A DNA stretch of 64,000 nt from Phycisphaerae bacterium (GTDB taxonomy: Bacteria; Planctomycetota; Phycisphaerae; UBA1845). Both the position numbers and the translations under genes were made by a program. Shown one piece after another: positions 11,056-48,754 of the stretch; the first letter of the stretch is position 1; every line of letters starts with the position of its first letter. The notes under the pieces were generated by a model. That model was not told where the DNA came from. It worked only from the letters and a program-made list of their open reading frames with translations, and made no database searches. The stretch spans positions 1 to 64,000 of the forward strand of contig JANQQK010000060.1 in NCBI GenBank assembly GCA_028289375.1. Reading direction: 5' to 3'.

Positions 11056-13569
11056 ATGCAAGGTTCCTTCAGGGCTGCTTGCGTGACACTACTTGTCATC
11101 CTTGCGGTTGGCGAGGCAGATGCGCAGACCCGACTTGTCGGAACCACCACCCGATTCTTTCTGGAAATCGACGTGTCCACGGGAGAAACAACGCGTGTCT
11201 CAGGCGTCAACCTGTTGGGATATCAGAGCATCTCCGGATTGACAGTTGACCCTGAAACAGGCGACCTGTTTGGCATTGATGGCGAGACGGACGAGCTGCT
11301 CAGAATCGACGCCGCGACAGGCGATGCTGTGGTTCTTGGTGGAAGCGGGTTCGAGTCAGATGGCGGGCTGGCCTATGACACCGCTACGGACACCTTGTTC
11401 TGGAATTCGAGACTTGAACATCTCATCGTGAAGCTTGACTTGTTGACCGGTACGTCAACTACATTGGATTTGCCCGCAACTCCTGATATTCGTGGGATGG
11501 CCTTTCGTCCGAGCCGAAACACACTCTATGGTAATGACGAGTTTGGTGATCTTTATACCATCAATACGACTACTGGTGATTTGACGTTCGTCGGTAGTCA
11601 CGGATTGGAACTCGATGAGCGCTTGTCCGGGCTGGCCTACGATTCAGTAAGGGATCAGTTGTACAGTATCAAGAACGATACACTTGAGCTCTATGCGATC
11701 GATCCTCAAATGGGCTCAGCGGCGTTGCTGGGCAGCGTTGCCGGTAGGCCTATATCTGGGCTCGGATTTGACCCGATCGCGGACCGTCTCTACGGCATGC
11801 AAGGATTCACTCGACTGATCTCTATCGATCCAACGACTTTGGAGAGTTTGATGATTGGCTCGTTGGGCATATTCGCCCAATGGGGGTTCGCCTACGATGG
11901 TGGCTCTGACACTTTCTTTGCGACCGGTGGTGATTCACTGTTTCGCGTGGACGTGACGAACGGAACCGCCGTTTTCGTCGGTGCTTTGGGATTCCGCCAG
12001 GTTTTCGGCCTCGCGATCGATGAATCGACCGGCACGTTCTATGGTGTCGATCTAGAAACGGCACAGCTCATCACGATCGACCCTCTGACTGGTAGTGGGG
12101 TCGCAGTTGGCCCGATCGGATTCGACGGCGTGCTCTCGTTGGTATTTGATCGAGATACTCAATCGCTCTACGCAGTGGATCTGTCCACGAATTCCTTGAT
12201 CGAGATCGACATAATGTCGGGCGCGGGCAGCCTGATTGGCCCTATTGGCGTGAACGGAATCAGATCGCTCGCACTGGACTCTTCTGGTGCGCTATTCGGC
12301 TTGGGGTTGGGCGGTGGTGTCGTTGGCAGTCAACTGGTAACTATTGATCGATCCAGTGGTATGGGGGCCTTGGTCGGGCCTACGGGATACAGTCTGAATG
12401 GACTCGAATTTGATCAGAGCCGCGGTTCGCTCCTTGGCATGGGGCAATCTGTGGTCACGATCGACCCAGAAACCGGTGCAGGATCCTCGATTGGCACCTT
12501 GGGGACGCGGGGAATCGTGGGTCTCGGATTCGACCCTCTTGCGGGAACGCTTCATGGGCTGGACATGGCCTTCGCGGGTCTTAAGACTGTCAATCCACTG
12601 ACCGGCGAGACCCAGTTCAATGGGACGATCGGGGGCGGTGGCCCCGTGAGTGGGAGTAGTCTTTCGTACGATGTGCACGATGGTGTGCTCTACGCGGTCG
12701 ATTCACTCCTTGATCGACTCTATCGGATCGTCCCCGAGACGGGCATTGGAACACTCATCAGTGGTCCTCTGGGTTTTAGCGGGGTTGAGTGTATTGCATC
12801 AGATCGCGAAACTGGTGTGTTGTACGGCGTCGATGTTGAGACAGACCAGCTCATTACCATCAACAAGAACAGCGGCATTGGAGCAGTTGTTGGCCCGGTT
12901 GGTTTCGATGATGTCCGTTCCATGGATTATGATCCGGAGACGGGCCAGTTGTATGCGTTCGATTTTGCGACAGATCAACTCATCTCCATCGATCCGATGA
13001 CAGGTGCGGGCACGGCCATTGGCCCCAGTGGGTATATCAACATCCAGGCGTTAGCGTTTGTCAGTCCACCGCCCGTTTGCGGAAACGGTATCCTGGACTT
13101 CGGCGAGGAATGCGACGACGGATCGGGCAATGCAGACGTGGCCGATGCGTGTCGGACGGATTGCACGTTGCCGACATGCGGTGATGCGATTGTCGACACA
13201 GGCGAGCAGTGTGACGATGGCTTGCTCAATGCCGAAGTGGCCGATGCCTGCCGAACGAATTGTCGATTGCCGGTATGCGGGGATGGGATCGTCGACTTCG
13301 AGGAAGCGTGCGACGAAATGGGTGAGACGATCGAGTGCGACGATGACTGCACCGTGCCGGTTTGCGGAGATGGCAATGTCAATCAGGCAGCCGGCGAAGA
13401 GTGCGACGACGGCAATACAACGGACGGCGACGGTTGTGCGGCCAACTGCGGCCTCGACGCGGCCGCCCCGATCCCAGCCCTTGGCGGCGCGGGCATGGCG
13501 TTGCTCATTGGCGTACTCGCGGTTCTTCTCGTCGCACAGGTTCGCCGATCAGGCGTGCAGCACTTCTGA
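11056..13569 (+). CDS. Exported beta-propeller protein with Cys-rich repeats and PIPALG-type C-terminal anchor
   Basis: An 837-residue secreted protein. A signal peptide (ending GEADA) is followed by about 13-14 repeats of 45 residues, each like GVDLETAQLITIDPLTGSG with a following VGPIGF strand; these should form one or two beta-propellers. Residues about 673-815 hold four Myxococcus-type Cys-rich repeats (CGNGILDFGEECDDG and variants). The C terminus is PIPALGGAGMALLIGV, a hydrophobic helix and an RR end, which resembles the IPTL-CTERM class of tripartite sorting signals. A GAGGGA sits before the ATG. The gene is AT-richer than the housekeeping genes around it. Surface display is likely; binding partners are unknown. 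Confidence 0.8.
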   Translation: MQGSFRAACVTLLVILAVGEADAQTRLVGTTTRFFLEIDVSTGETTRVSGVNLLGYQSISGLTVDPETGDLFGIDGETDELLRIDAATGDAVVLGGSGFESDGGLAYDTATDTLFWNSRLEHLIVKLDLLTGTSTTLDLPATPDIRGMAFRPSRNTLYGNDEFGDLYTINTTTGDLTFVGSHGLELDERLSGLAYDSVRDQLYSIKNDTLELYAIDPQMGSAALLGSVAGRPISGLGFDPIADRLYGMQGFTRLISIDPTTLESLMIGSLGIFAQWGFAYDGGSDTFFATGGDSLFRVDVTNGTAVFVGALGFRQVFGLAIDESTGTFYGVDLETAQLITIDPLTGSGVAVGPIGFDGVLSLVFDRDTQSLYAVDLSTNSLIEIDIMSGAGSLIGPIGVNGIRSLALDSSGALFGLGLGGGVVGSQLVTIDRSSGMGALVGPTGYSLNGLEFDQSRGSLLGMGQSVVTIDPETGAGSSIGTLGTRGIVGLGFDPLAGTLHGLDMAFAGLKTVNPLTGETQFNGTIGGGGPVSGSSLSYDVHDGVLYAVDSLLDRLYRIVPETGIGTLISGPLGFSGVECIASDRETGVLYGVDVETDQLITINKNSGIGAVVGPVGFDDVRSMDYDPETGQLYAFDFATDQLISIDPMTGAGTAIGPSGYINIQALAFVSPPPVCGNGILDFGEECDDGSGNADVADACRTDCTLPTCGDAIVDTGEQCDDGLLNAEVADACRTNCRLPVCGDGIVDFEEACDEMGETIECDDDCTVPVCGDGNVNQAAGEECDDGNTTDGDGCAANCGLDAAAPIPALGGAGMALLIGVLAVLLVAQVRRSGVQHF

Positions 13570-15695: not shown

Positions 15696-18104
15696 TCAGT
15701 CTGATGTCAAAGCCATTGGCGAGGCGGGTTGGTCTTTGATCTGATCGAGAACTGCCTCCACAAGGCGATGTCGGTCGATTGGCTTGGTCAGGTATTCGTT
15801 GCACCCGGCATCGATGCACCGGCTGCGGTCCTTCGAGGACGCATGGGCCGTCAGTGCGATGATGGGAATGTTGCAGCCTTGTTCCCGGAGCTTGCGACAG
15901 GCTGTGTAGCCGTCCATCTCGGGCATCTGCATGTCGCTCAGGAAGACGTCAAATGCGTTGGTATCTGCTTCGCGAGATATGGCGTCGATTGCCAGTACCC
16001 CGTTCTCGACGACCAGCACGTTGGCGCCGGCTTTGGAGAGGATGTGTCGGATCAGTCGCTGATTGTCTGGCCCATCTTCTGCAACGAGGATTTTTAAACC
16101 GCGGAGTTGATCTTGCTTCTGGGCTGCGACTTGGACGGTCGCAGGGTCTGGTAAGTCGGGCACTGAGACCAACTTCTCGCATTCGGTCGGTGAGACAGGC
16201 AGCGCCAACCTGAACGTGCTTCCATCCCCGACGCGGGATTCCACCAGGCGCAGATCGCCGGAGAGGAGTTCGGCCCATTTCTTGCTAATGGCCAGCCCGA
16301 TTCCGACACCACCATTTCGTCTGGTCATGGTGTCGTCGACCTGGCTGAATGCCTCGAACAGCGTATCGATTCGGTCGCTTGGTATCCCAGAGCCTGAATC
16401 CTTAACGTCGAAGTGTAGTTCTCGGACATCCTGATTGCGCATGAAGGAGACGCGCAGCTCAACGTCTCCTTCTTGCGTGAATTTGATCGCGTTGTTGACC
16501 AGCATGCTGATGACTTGCCTGATGCGTCCCGGGTCCGATCTGATGACCTCGGGAATCTTCGTCGTTGCGTGGCATTTGAACTCAAGACCCGCCTGCCGAA
16601 CAGACGAACTCGCCGATTGGGCGATACCGACGAACAGGTTCGACGTCCGAATCTCCACAACGCTGCAATGCATCGTGTCCATTCGCATTTGGGAGACTTC
16701 CAGCAGATCTTCAATCAGATTCGTCAACCGCTTCGAATTGCGACGAATTGTGTCGATGTTCTCTTTTATCGGAATGTTGTTACCGACATCAAGGTCCGAG
16801 AGCGATTCCGCGAATCCAACGACCGCTGTCAGTGGTGTGCGGATCTCGTGGCTGATGTTGGCGATGAATTGTGACTTGGTCTCCTCAGCCTGCTTCACTT
16901 TCGTCAGGTCGCGAACGATCCCGGTGAACCACGGGCGTTCGACGCCAGGTATGTCGACTTTCGCCACCTTGACTTCGCACGGAAACTCGGTTCCATCTTT
17001 TCGCAATGCACGCAGTTCGCGCGTGTCGCCGACAAGCGATTCGCGTCCGAACTGACGATAGGCATCCATCGCCTGTTCCTGGGCTGCACGATGAGACTCA
17101 GGGATGATGATGTGAATACTCTGGCCGATGATTTCGTGTGGTTTCCAGCCGAACACGGTTTCCACCGAATCGCTGACGGATTGGATGATGCCGTCTGCGT
17201 CCACCGAGATCATCGGATCGATGGATGCCGCCATAATGGCGCTTTGGCGTTCCTGGGTTGCCAGAAGGGCCGCCTCGTCACGTTTGCGTGACGTGACGTC
17301 TCGTATCGTGCCGGTGAACCAAGGCTCTTTCTGGCCTGGAACATCCACGCGCGACACGTTGATCTCGCACGGAAAGATATTTCCGTCTTTCCGCATCGCC
17401 TGAAACTCGCGCGTTTGCCCCAGAATCCGCGATGCGCCAGTGCGACGATAAGCCTCGAGGTACCGGTCGTGTTCCGAGCGGTAGGGATCTGGCATCAGCA
17501 TCTTGATATTCTGCCCGACAACTTCGCCTGGCTTCCACCCAAACACCCGTTCGATCGAGTTGCTTGCCGACTGAATGATGCCTTGCACGTTGATGGTGAT
17601 CATCGGGTCGAGCGACGCAGCCATCACGGCGGCCTGCCGCGCTTGTGTTGCCCAGAGAACGGCTTCGGCGCGTTTCCGTTCGGTGATGTCGCGAATGATT
17701 CCCGTGAACCACGGAAAGTCACCGTCCGGACGATCGACGCGAGCCACCCGGATTTCGCACGGGAACAGACTTCCGTCCTTACGCTGTGCGTGAAACTCGC
17801 GCGTGACGCCCAGGATTCGCGATGCACCGGTATCACGATAACGCTGAAGATAGCCGTCATGCTCGCTGCGATATGGCTCGGGCATGAGCAGTTTGATATT
17901 CTGGCCGATGACCTCTTCGGACTTCCATCCGAACACGCGCTCGATCGAAATGCTGCAGGTCATGATCGTCCCGAGATGATCAATGGTGAGCAATGGATCC
18001 AGCGATGCCGAAGACACCGCGGACCACGTAGCGGCATCGATCGTTGGAGCGTCGGATGTGCCAGGGTTTGGCGTCGGTTGCGTGCAATCGTTTCCTGCAG
18101 CCAT
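15696..18104 (-). CDS. Hybrid sensor histidine kinase with three PAS domains, two of FixL type
   Basis: An 802-residue cytoplasmic hybrid kinase without membrane segments. Three PAS/PAC units repeat with an exact period of 130 residues (cores about 30-145, 160-275, 290-405). They are followed by HisKA (IANISHEIRTPL, phospho-acceptor H419), HATPase (NNAIKFTQEG, DSGSGIP, GVGIGLAI) and a C-terminal receiver (FLSDMQMPEMDG). PAS1 and PAS2 contain H82 and H212 in YRSEHD, each 20 residues before an Arg (R102, R232), exactly like the haem-binding H200 and R220 of Bradyrhizobium FixL; PAS3 has Gln in place of His. Oxygen or another gas may thus be the signal. No partner phosphotransfer protein or regulator is adjacent. 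The start ATG at 18104 has no strong ribosome binding site. Confidence 0.92.
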   Translation of the reverse strand: MAAGNDCTQPTPNPGTSDAPTIDAATWSAVSSASLDPLLTIDHLGTIMTCSISIERVFGWKSEEVIGQNIKLLMPEPYRSEHDGYLQRYRDTGASRILGVTREFHAQRKDGSLFPCEIRVARVDRPDGDFPWFTGIIRDITERKRAEAVLWATQARQAAVMAASLDPMITINVQGIIQSASNSIERVFGWKPGEVVGQNIKMLMPDPYRSEHDRYLEAYRRTGASRILGQTREFQAMRKDGNIFPCEINVSRVDVPGQKEPWFTGTIRDVTSRKRDEAALLATQERQSAIMAASIDPMISVDADGIIQSVSDSVETVFGWKPHEIIGQSIHIIIPESHRAAQEQAMDAYRQFGRESLVGDTRELRALRKDGTEFPCEVKVAKVDIPGVERPWFTGIVRDLTKVKQAEETKSQFIANISHEIRTPLTAVVGFAESLSDLDVGNNIPIKENIDTIRRNSKRLTNLIEDLLEVSQMRMDTMHCSVVEIRTSNLFVGIAQSASSSVRQAGLEFKCHATTKIPEVIRSDPGRIRQVISMLVNNAIKFTQEGDVELRVSFMRNQDVRELHFDVKDSGSGIPSDRIDTLFEAFSQVDDTMTRRNGGVGIGLAISKKWAELLSGDLRLVESRVGDGSTFRLALPVSPTECEKLVSVPDLPDPATVQVAAQKQDQLRGLKILVAEDGPDNQRLIRHILSKAGANVLVVENGVLAIDAISREADTNAFDVFLSDMQMPEMDGYTACRKLREQGCNIPIIALTAHASSKDRSRCIDAGCNEYLTKPIDRHRLVEAVLDQIKDQPASPMALTSD

Positions 18105-43505: not shown

Positions 43506-44381
43506 CTAGCCAAGCCCCTTCACGCGACGCTTCGCATCACGCCGCAGTTTGCGGAACTGATCCGCCGCCGGATGCATTCGTTGTGGACGCTCGGGCACCG
43601 GCTCGGCGACGCCTTCGTTCTCCATGGGCTGCGATTGCGGCTCGGGAGCGCGAACGCGCGGCATCTGCTTCGGTGTCGCCACAGCCTGATCCTGCGCCGA
43701 CTTCGGCAACGGTGGTGCGATCGGCTCCGGATCGATCTCGGCGGCTGGTCCCAAACGCTTGGCCAACTGTTCACGCTGCGCGGTCAGTTCGCGATGCTCG
43801 CGTTTCAACTGCTCGGTCAGCATCTCGAGATCCTCGCGACGCGACTCCAGTTCCGCCGTCTGAGCCTTCAAGCCCGCCTCACGCTGGTCCAGTCCGCTGT
43901 TGCGCTGCTCGAGTTCGCCGGCGCGCTCTTCCAGGCGATGGTGCGCCTCGGTCAGCTCCTCACGGTTGACCTTCAGCGACGCCGTGGCGTCCTGAAGCGC
44001 CTTCTCGGACGCACTCAGTTCCGCCTGTTCATTGGCAAGCACCCCACGCGCGGTTTCCAGCTTGTCATAGTCATCGGCCAATGACCGCTCTCGCTGCGCA
44101 ATGGCGTTCTTCTCAACGTCGAGATTGTCCTGAATGGAGGCAAGCTCGCGTTCGCGTGATTCGAGTGTGGCGGTTTGTTCGAGGAGTTGTTTGCGCTCTG
44201 CTTGTACTTTTGTTCGTGCAGATTCAATGCGCGCATGTTCCTGGAACAATTCGTCCGCACGCGTCCGGATAACGCTCAACGCCTTGGCCAGCTCAGCCAC
44301 AGCTTCATCCGCCAGCTGCTTTAATGGCTCCAGCCCTGGTGGCGCGGTCAGCACTTCCATGTTTTTTGCTCTATTGGCCAT
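43506..44381 (-). CDS. Coiled-coil protein of the GTPase operon
   Basis: A 291-residue protein that opens the operon. Residues about 25-210 form a continuous coiled coil (LEQTATLESRERELASIQDNL). Then comes a Pro/Gln-rich linker (210-265) and a basic C-terminal helix (QFRKLRRDAKRRVKGLG). ATG 44381 has GGGGAGAG upstream. Its layout mirrors the giant coiled-coil gene transcribed the other way: long coil, flexible Pro-rich linker, charged C terminus. So the two may be partners. The 239-bp gap between them is their shared promoter region. Confidence 0.8.
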   Translation of the reverse strand: MANRAKNMEVLTAPPGLEPLKQLADEAVAELAKALSVIRTRADELFQEHARIESARTKVQAERKQLLEQTATLESRERELASIQDNLDVEKNAIAQRERSLADDYDKLETARGVLANEQAELSASEKALQDATASLKVNREELTEAHHRLEERAGELEQRNSGLDQREAGLKAQTAELESRREDLEMLTEQLKREHRELTAQREQLAKRLGPAAEIDPEPIAPPLPKSAQDQAVATPKQMPRVRAPEPQSQPMENEGVAEPVPERPQRMHPAADQFRKLRRDAKRRVKGLG

Positions 44382-44584
44382 CGTGGCTCTCCCCACCCTG
44401 TCCCGAGGTGGTCGTAGTTCAAAAGCCAACGCCCTCGTGTCGATCTAGATAGGACGTGTCGATGCGCACATGCCACATCGCACGATCCAAATTGTACGAT
44501 ACGTTTGCGGCAAGCCAGACACTTTGTCAGATCGAAGGGTAGAGTTTTCCGCACGACGTCGTTGGGACCGATTGGGGGCACTTG

Positions 44585-44604
44585 TGATCGGACCTCGCCG
44601 ATCA
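44585..44604. promoter_or_regulatory. Dyad next to the start of the giant coiled-coil gene
   Basis: TGATCGG (44585-44591) and CCGATCA (44598-44604) form a seven-base inverted repeat with a six-base gap, 16 bases before the ATG and touching the AGGAA that may serve as ribosome binding site. It could be an operator or an RNA hairpin that limits translation. No promoter boxes were clear in the rest of the 239-bp gap. Confidence 0.35.
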
Positions 44605-44620
44605 GGAATCGCGCAACATT

Positions 44621-47600
44621 ATGACTGATGCAAAGCTAGCGAAAACGGGACAGGAGTCCGCTGCGCCCGATAACGCGCACGACGATGCGCGGACGGATGT
44701 TGTGGCGTCTCATGATCAGGTCGCGGACGTTCTCTCAACCGTCACCGAACGCATCGAGACCATTCAGCGCAGCGTCACCGATTCGTGGAAACAGATCGAT
44801 AACTGGCGCGCTCGCGTCGAAGAATTTGCAGAAAAAGTCGGCCAGCGCGCAGATGAAGTCGACGCCGCGGATGCAGCCGTCCGAGAACGTGCGCAACAAC
44901 TCGACGCCCAAGCCAAACAGCAGCAAGACAACGCCACCGCGCTCACCGAACGCGATCAGTCCCTGCAGCAACGCCTGCAGCAGCTCGAACAGCAGCAGAA
45001 AGACCTGCAGAATCAGGCATCTGAAATCGAGGGTGCACGGCAGAAGCTCCAGTCCGAGAACGAACAAATCGCCAGTGCGAAGTCCAAACAGCAGTCCGAC
45101 GCCCAGAAGCTCGCCGACCGCGAATCATCACTCAAGAAGGAACTTGCCAACCTCGAGCGCATGAAAACGGACTACGCCGCGCGCGATCGCGAGTGGTCCG
45201 AACGCAACGCCAAGCTCGAAGAACGTCAGAAGAAAATCACCACAGCAGAGCAGTCCGTCGCCCAGCGCGAATCCGGGCTTGAGTCCAACAACGCCAAACT
45301 CGCCGACTCACAGAAAGCACTGGCCGACCAACAGAAGAAGCTGAACAGCGACGTCGAAACACTCAAGGCCCACAAAGCCCAACTCGACAAGCAAGCCGAA
45401 GAGCAGAAGAAGCAACACGAGCAGTCCAAGCAGGAAAAGGCCGCCATCGGTCAAGCCAATCAGCAACTCGATGCGCGAACGAAGGAGATTGAGTCACGAT
45501 CGGCCAAGCTCAACGAGCATCAGCAGGGACTCGAGAACACGGCCAGACAGCAGCAGCAAACCGCCGCCAAACTCGAGAAGCAGCAAGAGGACAACGAAGC
45601 GACAAAGCAGTCGCTCGAACAGCAGGCGATCGACATCGCCAAACAGAATCAGCATCTCGAACATCAACGAAGCGAACTGCTCAAGTTCAAGCAGCAACTT
45701 GAGTCTGATGGTCAGAAGCTGGACGATCAGCGCAAGCGTCTCGAGGCCGACACCAAACAGCACGCCGCCAATACCCAGCAACTCCAGGCCCGCAGCCAGG
45801 AATTGGATCAGAATGCCAAGTCCCTCGATCAGCGCCAGTCTGAGCTGACCAAACAACAGCAGTCGCTCGAATCGGCAAGCAAGGAGCTGGACGCGCAGAA
45901 GTCTGCGCTGACCAAGCAACATGAGCAGGTCACTGCCGCCGCTCAGTCGAACAAGGATCGCGAAGCGCAGCTATCCGCCACCCAAAAGAAGCTCGATGAG
46001 CAGAGTGCCCAGCTTCGCGAACAGGCCAAGAAGCAGGAATCCGACAACGCCGCCCTGCAGCAGGAAAAGGCCAAGCTCAACGATCGTGCCCAAAGTATCG
46101 CCGCCGGCGAAACCGAAATCGCCAAGACGAAGCAGGCCATCGAAGCTGATCGCAAAGCGCTCGACGAACACAAGTCCAAGCTCGCCGACGAAAGAAAGCA
46201 AGTCGAACAATCTCGGAAATCCGTCGCGGACGAAACCGCGAAGGTCACCCAGCGCGAACAGAAACTCGTCGAGCGATGTCAGCAGGTCGACAAGCAGTCT
46301 GCCGATCTGGCCAAAAGGTCAGCCGATCTCGACAAGCAAACCGCAGGCGTCGCCGATCAGCACAAGCAGTTGCAGCAACAGCAACAGTCGCTCGAGAAAA
46401 CTGCGAACGACCTGAAACAACAGGAAGCCCAAGCTGCCAAGAAGCAAGCGGATCTACAGGCCACCGCAAAGAAACTCGAACAGCAGCACGCAGACCTCAA
46501 GAAGCAGGCGGATGCGGTTGCCGAACAGCAAAAACACGCCGAGAAACGCGAAGCCGCTGTCCAAACAGCTGGCCAGAAAGTGCAGACCGAGCGGCAGGAA
46601 TTGTCGCAGCACCGTGACAAGCTGCGTCAGCAGGCGTCCGAACTCGACGCCCGAAACGAGAAGCTACAGTCACAGCATGCCGAGCAACAGAAGCTGCAAG
46701 CCGACCTGACGCAATGGAAGCAGCAGGCCGAGCAGGAAAGGAAGCAACTCGACGCCGCCAAGTCCAAAGTGGTGTCCGACACCGAGCAACTGCGTAAGGA
46801 ATCAGGACGTGTAGAGGCTGAGTCGAAGAAACTCGCCGAGCAACGCGAGAGTGTCGGCCGCGATCAGGAGCAGGTGGCAGAGTTGCGGCAGAAACTCACC
46901 GCCGACCGTGAACGAATCGACAGCGAACGCAAGCAGTTTGAAGACGCCCGCCAGCGCTTCCAGAAGGAAGTCGACCAGAGTCGCGACGAAGGCGAACGCT
47001 ACGCTGCCGAGCGCGAAATGCTCCAGTCCGAACGCGAACACATCGCCACCGAGCGATCGCAACTCAGCAGCGAGCGCGCCGAAATCGACAAGGCGCGCGC
47101 TCAAACCGAAGCACTCCAGCAACGCATTCGCGACGAACGCGAGGAAGTCAAAGCCGCACGCCTTGAAATCGAACAGCAGCGGCAGGCGATCGAATCAACC
47201 AGCGAGAAACTTGCCGAGCAAAAGGCCGAAGCAGACACCGAATCACAACGCGTGCAGGCGTTGAGCGAAAAGCAGAATGCCGAACTTGCCCAGCTCAAGT
47301 CCGAGCGTGAGGAACTGGCGGAAAAACGCCGTCAGATCAAGCTTGATCAGCAACGACTCGCCGACGAACGCGCCGAACTCGACGGAGAACGCGATCGCCT
47401 GACGTCACAGGTCGGCGAGCATCAGGACGAAGCCACGCAACTCGCCACCGAACGTCAACGCCTCGCGGCCGAGCGCGAAAAGCTGCAACTGCAACGCGAC
47501 GAACTGTCGGCCAAGCTGGAAAAGTCAGCAAGCGACCAGGCCACGCTCGAAGTCGAACGCGAGAAGGTCGAAGCCGACGCACGGCAGTTGGCTGACCGCG

Positions 47601-48754
47601 TGACCGAACTCGAAGCCGAGCGCGAAAAACTACAAAGCGAAAACAGCAAACTGCAGGCATTGAAGGACGACCTGCAGCAACAGCAGTCGACGCAGCAATC
47701 CGAGACAGCCGCCATCGCCGAGCAGCGACAAGAGGTCGAACAGCAGCAGGCTACGATCAAGCAGTTGCGTGCAGAGGTTGAATCCAAAGAGGAGCAACTC
47801 CGGAAGCAAACGGACGAGCTTGAATCACAGCGCAGGCAACTTGACGAACAGGCCGACGAACTCTCCAGGAAACAGAGTGAGGCGGCCAAGTCCGAAACGT
47901 CGGTCACCGAGCAAAGTCAGGCGCTCGAATCGCAACGGTCTGACATCGAGGAGCAACTCCGCGCCGTCGCCGAACGGGAGATGGCGCTGACGAGTGAGAG
48001 ACTCGCGTTCGAAACGGAACGAAAGATGCTCGAGGAGCATTGTCAGACACTGCAGCAGCAGGTTGCCGAATTTCAGGAAGGCGGCGTCGAGTCAGCCGAG
48101 TCTGATCAGAAGGCCGCCGCACGGAAGGCCGAGGTCGAGAAATGGGCAGAGGAGCTGTCCTCAGAGCGCAAAGCGCTGGAACAATGGCGTGATGATCTCG
48201 ACAAACACCGCCTCGCGCTGGAAGAACTCCAAACCACGATCACGCAGCAGCAAAACGAGATCGGCGAAATGACCAGCCAGGTTGCCGCCGCTGCCGAGGA
48301 AACGACAAAGCTGGTTGAAGGGTCCGAGCAGAAAGCAGAAAAGAGCGACACACAGGGACGAACGACCCCTACAGCGAAGAAGCAGGATCCCAAGGAGTCC
48401 TCCAGCCCGGTTGAGACTGGCGGCAAAGACAATAAGCCCAACGCCACCCCCAAGCCCAAAAAGATGCGGAAGAAGTCGGCCAGCGAGACTGTGCCGACGC
48501 CGAAGTCTGCTTCCAGAAAGCGCGTCGAACCAGAAGCCGCACCCGCTGACACAAAGGCCGAAACGCCTCCAGCCGACGACGATATTCTTGCCGGTCTCGA
48601 CGAGGAAACACTCGACAAACTACGCATGCTCCGTCGCATCAAGGGACCATCCAAGAGCGACGCCGATCTGCTCAAGATCATCGAGCAGGAGCAGGAACAA
48701 CCCGACCCATCAGGTCAGGGTAAGAAGAAGTGGTGGAAATTCCGCGGGGAATGA
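44621..48754 (+). CDS. Giant coiled-coil protein (1377 aa)
   Basis: Almost the whole protein (about 40-1240) is one coiled coil rich in Gln, Lys and Glu with heptad periodicity (for example LQQRLQQLEQQQKDLQNQ). It would be over 150 nm if extended. No P-loop or hinge of SMC type is present, so it is not an SMC protein. From about 1250 a Lys/Pro/Thr-rich linker follows, then an acidic-to-basic conserved-looking tail (DEETLDKLRMLRRIKG, KKKWWKFRGE). It has no signal peptide and should be cytoplasmic. It is divergent from the GTPase operon, and the tail layout matches the 291-residue coiled-coil protein, so it may form a filament or scaffold for that system. Nucleotide repetition gives spurious ORFs in other frames. 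Confidence 0.85.
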   Translation: MTDAKLAKTGQESAAPDNAHDDARTDVVASHDQVADVLSTVTERIETIQRSVTDSWKQIDNWRARVEEFAEKVGQRADEVDAADAAVRERAQQLDAQAKQQQDNATALTERDQSLQQRLQQLEQQQKDLQNQASEIEGARQKLQSENEQIASAKSKQQSDAQKLADRESSLKKELANLERMKTDYAARDREWSERNAKLEERQKKITTAEQSVAQRESGLESNNAKLADSQKALADQQKKLNSDVETLKAHKAQLDKQAEEQKKQHEQSKQEKAAIGQANQQLDARTKEIESRSAKLNEHQQGLENTARQQQQTAAKLEKQQEDNEATKQSLEQQAIDIAKQNQHLEHQRSELLKFKQQLESDGQKLDDQRKRLEADTKQHAANTQQLQARSQELDQNAKSLDQRQSELTKQQQSLESASKELDAQKSALTKQHEQVTAAAQSNKDREAQLSATQKKLDEQSAQLREQAKKQESDNAALQQEKAKLNDRAQSIAAGETEIAKTKQAIEADRKALDEHKSKLADERKQVEQSRKSVADETAKVTQREQKLVERCQQVDKQSADLAKRSADLDKQTAGVADQHKQLQQQQQSLEKTANDLKQQEAQAAKKQADLQATAKKLEQQHADLKKQADAVAEQQKHAEKREAAVQTAGQKVQTERQELSQHRDKLRQQASELDARNEKLQSQHAEQQKLQADLTQWKQQAEQERKQLDAAKSKVVSDTEQLRKESGRVEAESKKLAEQRESVGRDQEQVAELRQKLTADRERIDSERKQFEDARQRFQKEVDQSRDEGERYAAEREMLQSEREHIATERSQLSSERAEIDKARAQTEALQQRIRDEREEVKAARLEIEQQRQAIESTSEKLAEQKAEADTESQRVQALSEKQNAELAQLKSEREELAEKRRQIKLDQQRLADERAELDGERDRLTSQVGEHQDEATQLATERQRLAAEREKLQLQRDELSAKLEKSASDQATLEVEREKVEADARQLADRVTELEAEREKLQSENSKLQALKDDLQQQQSTQQSETAAIAEQRQEVEQQQATIKQLRAEVESKEEQLRKQTDELESQRRQLDEQADELSRKQSEAAKSETSVTEQSQALESQRSDIEEQLRAVAEREMALTSERLAFETERKMLEEHCQTLQQQVAEFQEGGVESAESDQKAAARKAEVEKWAEELSSERKALEQWRDDLDKHRLALEELQTTITQQQNEIGEMTSQVAAAAEETTKLVEGSEQKAEKSDTQGRTTPTAKKQDPKESSSPVETGGKDNKPNATPKPKKMRKKSASETVPTPKSASRKRVEPEAAPADTKAETPPADDDILAGLDEETLDKLRMLRRIKGPSKSDADLLKIIEQEQEQPDPSGQGKKKWWKFRGE

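Follow-up and report, generated by a model that had tools for sequence, protein, structure and literature searches.

The window analyzed here, a stretch of 64,000 nucleotides from a Phycisphaerae bacterium, contains at positions 15696–18104 of the minus strand a gene for an 802-residue hybrid histidine kinase with the layout PAS1–PAS2–PAS3–HisKA–HATPase_c–REC, read from an ATG start as an uninterrupted frame of 802 codons. All of its domains accordingly lie on the minus strand. PAS1 (residues 22–145; 17670–18041) and PAS2 (residues 150–275; 17280–17657) are of the FixL type with the characteristic His and Arg present, and PAS3 (residues 280–405; 16890–17267) has a FixL-type fold and has lost the His. 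Pfam recognizes the remainder as a HisKA dimerization and phosphoacceptor domain (residues 409–472; 16689–16880) with the H-box SHEIR and H419, a HATPase_c domain (residues 523–637; 16194–16538) with N, G1, F and G2 boxes, and a receiver domain (residues 671–784; 15753–16094) with the phosphoacceptor D724 and the Thr and Lys motifs. The individual kinase motifs (H-box, N, G1, F and G2) and receiver motifs (Asp, Thr and Lys) were assigned from patterns that we take to be the canonical ones; with the HisKA H-box, the HATPase boxes and the receiver Asp all there, the protein has what defines a hybrid histidine kinase. The highest Kyte–Doolittle mean over 19 residues is 1.40 in the entire protein, which therefore has no evident membrane segment, and the kinase is predicted to be soluble (cytosolic).

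With respect to its surroundings, six of the eight adjoining ORFs that were scanned gave a Pfam match (Ffh, AdoMet decarboxylase, ScpA, a YjgF-like protein, a hydrolase and a DUF protein) and two gave none. Neither a receiver domain nor a FixJ-like response regulator was found among these eight, and the kinase is apparently without a linked partner gene. At the locus of the homologue described below (L169), where ORFs were read by eye, the neighbors differ from those in the window and no conserved context was seen. Elsewhere in the window, an 837-aa ORF (11056–13569, plus strand) has DUF4394/DUF6923 and DUF4215 matches and, by eye, a hydrophobic end; a 99-nt tandem array lies within it at 13128–13316. 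A coiled-coil-like ORF of 1377 aa (44621–48754, plus strand) is, judged by eye, strongly enriched in Gln, Lys, Glu and Ala, and this composition probably accounts for the strong AT skew of 0.384 in 44001–48000.

The sequence-only reading had drawn attention to the motif YRSEHD in PAS1 and PAS2, and the motif is indeed found in both, beginning at residues 78 and 208. It contains H82 (codon at 17859–17861, minus strand), which corresponds to H200 of Bradyrhizobium FixL (BjFixL), and H212 (17469–17471, minus strand), the putative proximal haem ligands of PAS1 and PAS2, respectively. Exactly 20 residues past each His, as had been stated, are R102 (17799–17801, minus strand) and R232 (17409–17411, minus strand), the counterparts of BjFixL R220; the claimed identity of this spacing with that of H200 and R220 is confirmed, as the H82/R102 and H212/R232 pairs both align to FixL without a gap. 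The proposed recurrence of the three PAS units every 130 residues is equally evident in the DNA, where three 227-nt direct repeats are separated by steps of 390 and 390 nt (130 codons) and the outer copies match the middle one at 72% and 60% identity. It is also correct that only the third unit lacks the His: PAS3 has Q342 (17079–17081, minus strand) at this position and retains R362, so that all three domains have Arg at the R220 place. At the protein level, PAS1 and PAS2 share 66% identity (82/124), PAS2 and PAS3 52%, and PAS1 and PAS3 48%.

PDB sequence matches, the predicted fold, the His and Arg residues and the aliphatic character of the distal pocket all uphold the FixL-like nature ascribed to PAS1 and PAS2. 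In phmmer searches of the PDB, FixL chains were the top matches for every domain (E values of 1e-28, 5e-26 and 1e-20 for PAS1, PAS2 and PAS3), and the runner-up was DosP at approximately 1e-12 (4e-13 for PAS1). Because FixL is the top match for each PAS and the alignment from His to Arg is gap-free, we attribute the His/Arg pattern to homology and not to chance. Homology to the FixL/DosP PAS domains extends to PAS1, PAS2 and PAS3, and a His on helix F-alpha at the H200 place is found in PAS1 (H82) and PAS2 (H212) and is replaced in PAS3 (Q342). By the account in PMC10468136, haem binding in the FixL/DosP cluster (cluster 3) depends chiefly on a His of the H200 type. The His–Arg spacing as such was discarded as proof of haem, since an Arg 20 residues past the His occurs in 122 of the 137 FixL-like domains in the best 79 of 113 relative loci and, being common within the FixL-like group, is not diagnostic.

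Residues 22–405 were modeled with AlphaFold2 as protein only, using an alignment that included 34 relatives drawn from the genome collection (mean pLDDT 92.4, pTM 0.58). H82 and H212 (model residues 61 and 191) are predicted to lie in F-alpha helices (57–71 and 187–201), R102 and R232 (model residues 81 and 211) in G-beta strands (80–86 and 210–216), and long helices are predicted to link PAS1 to PAS2 and PAS2 to PAS3 (residues 141–163 and 271–293). The best Foldseek match to this model was the tandem FixL PAS structure 8js5 (E 3.6e-21), and ranks 1–13 in VIA-align were without exception FixL haem PAS chains. Single-domain FixL structures matched the PAS2 part with Z scores of 18.4–19.4 and rmsd values of 1.1–1.4 Å, except 1d06 (3.7). 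Specifically, 1dp6 (Z 19.4, rmsd 1.2 over 116 residues) pairs model residue 145 with chain residue 154, and the same offset sets model residue 191 (H212) at 200. The tandem FixL PAS-A/PAS-B structure was aligned over 249 residues (Z 19.9, rmsd 3.3). After FixL came PpsR and then FG214 (10jx) and DosP at Z 15.7–17.0, with DosP itself at Z 15.7 and an rmsd of 1.8 over 110 residues; cofactor-free PAS domains and those with a different cofactor scored Z 14–15, near the FG214/DosP range, and no Aer2 structure was among the 50 VIA-align matches listed. Haem binding is not implied by a shared fold, and the positions of His and Arg in the model were read at the level of helices and strands.

The sequence-only reading had further suggested that two haem PAS domains in tandem would be unusual, and this expectation did not survive a wider survey. 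A scan of genome contigs with PAS1–PAS2 as the query was evaluated for the best 79 of 113 confirmed loci, which contain 137 FixL-like domains; 112 of these 137 conform to a strict FixL-type definition (H200, D201, G217 and R220, and not M216). Two or more FixL-type PAS domains lie side by side in 30 of these 79 loci, a figure that is evidence of recurrence and not of frequency because the query itself had two PAS domains, and at least three are adjacent in 7 of the best 79. Carriers of the tandem include gammaproteobacteria, Nitrospinaceae, Magnetococcales, Bacteroidota and others. In the order to which the window belongs, the strict tandem was seen in 1 of 28 loci in one sample (L141) and in 0 of 29 in another, and it is thus rare among the loci sampled from this order. 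When eight relatives were analyzed with Pfam, all five tandem ones (L052, L055, L057, L063 and L066) had HisKA and HATPase_c, and L052 and L057 had receivers as well. Longer arrays were also encountered: an ORF of 1362 aa from Microscilla (L071) has five FixL-like PAS domains, each with His and Arg, and an ORF of 751 aa (L023) has four consecutive PAS domains of an MGxGR branch, with His and Arg 20 residues apart in each and each nearest its own siblings in the tree. Use of this branch as a presumed non-haem control was given up, because 10jx, to which it matched best in the PDB, is itself a haem PAS. A literature search, patchy for subscription journals, returned no kinase shown to have two FixL-type haem PAS domains. 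Taken alone, the kinase is a modest finding, a plausible double gas sensor built from known parts in an arrangement that other bacteria also have.

The homologue L141 (genome G109), from the same order and another family, has PAS domains (d1, d2 and d3) at 38, 168 and 298, followed by a kinase and a receiver, with the 130-residue spacing of the window and with His and Arg in all three. In a small maximum-likelihood (ML) tree, PAS2 groups with d2 (bootstrap 88) and PAS3 with d3 (bootstrap 81); PAS1 and d1 are unpaired, and supports within the clade are low (20–66). Identity is 78% for PAS2 and d2, 55% for PAS3 and d3, 53% for PAS1 and d1, and 68% for PAS1 and d2; of the two resolved pairs, His-less PAS3 is the more diverged from its partner. 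Given the two pairings in this tree, the three-PAS array is probably old, and the simplest reading of the sequences is a common ancestor with three His residues and a probable loss of the PAS3 His on the window side. These pairings also weaken the idea of a recent PAS1–PAS2 doubling in the window lineage alone, and PAS1, as it does not pair with d1, may have been recopied. All of the window PAS domains fall in a clade with planctomycete and Nitrospinae domains (support 0.994; 100 in the ML tree). BjFixL and Sinorhizobium FixL (SmFixL) stand outside this clade in the domain trees, such that a grouping with FixL proper fails, and its one-PAS members (L080, L081, L085 and L142) all keep His and Arg (4/4). 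In G109, four ORFs on contigs 196, 199, 409 and 649 have matches that extend across both PAS1 and PAS2 (67, 44, 40 and 43% identity); the one on contig 196 was analyzed further.

Turning to the pocket, the distal positions 215/236/238 hold aliphatic residues throughout: I/I/V in PAS1 (I97/I118/V120), I/I/V in PAS2 (I227/I248/V250) and L/V/V in PAS3, the SmFixL counterparts being I209/L230/V232. Raw counts were compared over a small set of 15 pocket columns, consisting of residues named in the literature and neighbors of our own choosing, and in this set PAS2 and d2 are equal at 13/15 (74/96 elsewhere), PAS1 and d1 at 11/15, and PAS3 and d3 at 7/15 (54/95 elsewhere). PAS2 has Q230 at the FixL I218 place and A218 at the R206 place, where PAS1 has V100 and R88; the I218 place is D in PAS3 and N, M and N in L141. 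DosP has its Met (Met95) at this same place, and among the arrays compared only d2 shares it. Because the pockets of PAS1 and PAS2 differ in this manner, we would guess that their affinities may differ. R206 as a requirement for a haem PAS was dropped, as N (84) outnumbers R (32) there among the His-bearing domains of the best 79 of 113 loci.

Among known systems, FixL (Bradyrhizobium/Sinorhizobium) is likewise a tandem-PAS kinase, soluble in Bradyrhizobium, and has in common with the window PAS domains the haem-PAS fold, the H200/R220 positions and the distal aliphatic residues. Its Bj and Sm fragments are 43% and 53% identical to PAS1 and 44% and 47% identical to PAS2. In FixL, PAS-B is the one haem PAS and FixJ is a protein of its own; the window kinase has two His-bearing PAS domains and a His-less third, its receiver is fused to it, and no fixJ-like gene is linked. 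E. coli DosP, a PDB match at E 4e-13, belongs to the same haem-PAS cluster as described in PMC10468136; unlike the window kinase, it has a phosphodiesterase output. Haem PAS domains in tandem are described in a review (PMC13401364) for the two-PAS Aer2 of Vibrio cholerae and for the Aer2 of V. vulnificus, which has three haem PAS domains, a further reason not to call the tandem unusual. By its account all three PAS domains of the latter bind haem with similar O2 affinity and have different roles, PAS1 being “largely indispensable” in its wording, and V. vulnificus Aer2 is by analogy a working precedent for a multi-haem PAS line. Aer2 is a chemoreceptor, and it is set apart by description in PMC10468136, which assigns it to another PAS cluster with the haem His elsewhere (E-alpha/E-eta). 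FG214 of Fimbriimonas, a haem PAS with an HTH, is a more distant PAS in which haem binding by H156, the aligned F-alpha His and proximal ligand, has been demonstrated; it differs in being a transcription factor with bis-His or His–Met iron and in having no Arg at the R220 place.

Observed at this locus are the domains, their residues, the fold prediction and an array held in common with the homologue, and together these give the hybrid kinase a well-formed, probably functional pair of putative haem PAS domains of the FixL type. On balance, we favor a reading in which PAS1 and PAS2 both bind haem and gate the kinase by gas, with PAS3 as a haem-free relay; the haem, the gas, the direction of the switch and the phosphorelay are what we infer. 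Each of PAS1 and PAS2 would carry one b-type haem through H82 or H212 on helix F-alpha, and a gas, most likely O2 and possibly NO or CO, would bind to the free face of the iron. R220 of FixL moves from a haem propionate to the ligand, and R102 and R232 would swing in the same way. The signal would then travel along the helices joining PAS1, PAS2 and PAS3 into the kinase core, PAS3 without haem serving as the last relay of a single signal line, and phosphate would pass from H419 to D724, to an Hpt protein and then to some response regulator. In favor of this reading, the genome encodes Hpt proteins, including a stand-alone one, and the two COX1 genes described below. Counting against it are the Q at the I218 place and the A at the R206 place of PAS2, the missing matches for ferrochelatase, HemE and HemQ detailed below, and the lack of a linked response regulator among the eight ORFs scanned.

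The difference between the pockets (V100/R88 as opposed to Q230/A218) would also fit an alternative that we consider unlikely, in which gas sensing falls to a single haem PAS, PAS2 being the likeliest, and the other domain plays a structural part without haem. The FixL tandem, as presented in PMC8534201, senses O2 via haem in PAS-B only, and for this reason PAS1 or PAS2 could be apo; this tandem is moreover the best match to the whole model, with PAS1 on PAS-A and PAS2 on PAS-B. Nonetheless, His, Arg and the distal aliphatic residues are present in both domains, their pockets are alike at 13/15 columns versus 64/96 of the other columns, and L141 keeps the His in all three of its PAS domains.

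A second alternative, that the PAS domains sense haem supply or redox state and not gas, with reversible haem reporting availability, appears very unlikely and draws on the haem biosynthesis genes. The kinase's own genome (G000; computed completeness 99.3%) has HemB/ALAD, and a profile search of it gave no match for the ferrochelatase, URO-D/HemE or HemQ families; four matches to AhbD were all below the cut-off, the best ORF being MoaA-like by eye. No ferrochelatase match was obtained in the same-genus genome G001 either. The haem enzymes may be divergent or absent from the assembly, or haem may be taken up; haem auxotrophy or an unrecognized route is possible. It is because the last steps of haem synthesis are not recognized that haem sensing has to be considered, and a polar residue or Met at the I218 place (PAS2; N, M and N in L141) would permit a six-coordinate redox switch. 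Against this, 14 of 30 relatives have a ferrochelatase match (and 23 of the 30 one for ALAD), the tandem type is found in many unrelated bacteria, divergent enzymes may escape a profile search, and known FixL-type pockets hold haem tightly. The ferrochelatase matches in relatives often sit in ORFs of about 800 aa. The genome also has two COX1 genes, one beside CoxB-/CoxC-like ORFs and one beside c-type-cytochrome-like ORFs, and these clusters, read by eye, would be aa3-type and cbb3-type oxidases.

Least likely of all is a PAS array without haem, in which the His would survive from the FixL-like cluster as a relic, and each domain would bind another ligand or simply transmit: approximately 40% of the FixL/DosP cluster is without the His as given in PMC10468136, PAS3 being an example, and having the His is no proof of binding, but His and Arg are kept in PAS1, PAS2, 3/3 homologue PAS domains and 4/4 other domains of the clade, and the lone His-less domain, PAS3, is the most diverged of the two resolved pairs (55% versus 78%).

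A more ambitious view, which we regard as quite unlikely, is that of an ancient three-haem array whose differing distal pockets (V, Q and D at the I218 place, and N, M and N in L141) make it a multi-affinity or gas-discriminating sensor on a single kinase, with the third site now a haem-free relay in the window lineage and haem supply and gas perhaps read together. Returning to the favored reading, in which PAS1 and PAS2 both hold haem, this protein and its many relatives would each line up two to five gas sites on one kinase. PAS3 without the haem ligand and the homologue with all three His residues would be built-in controls, and the system could show whether repeating a sensor broadens the range of O2 covered, makes the switch sharper or helps to discriminate between gases.
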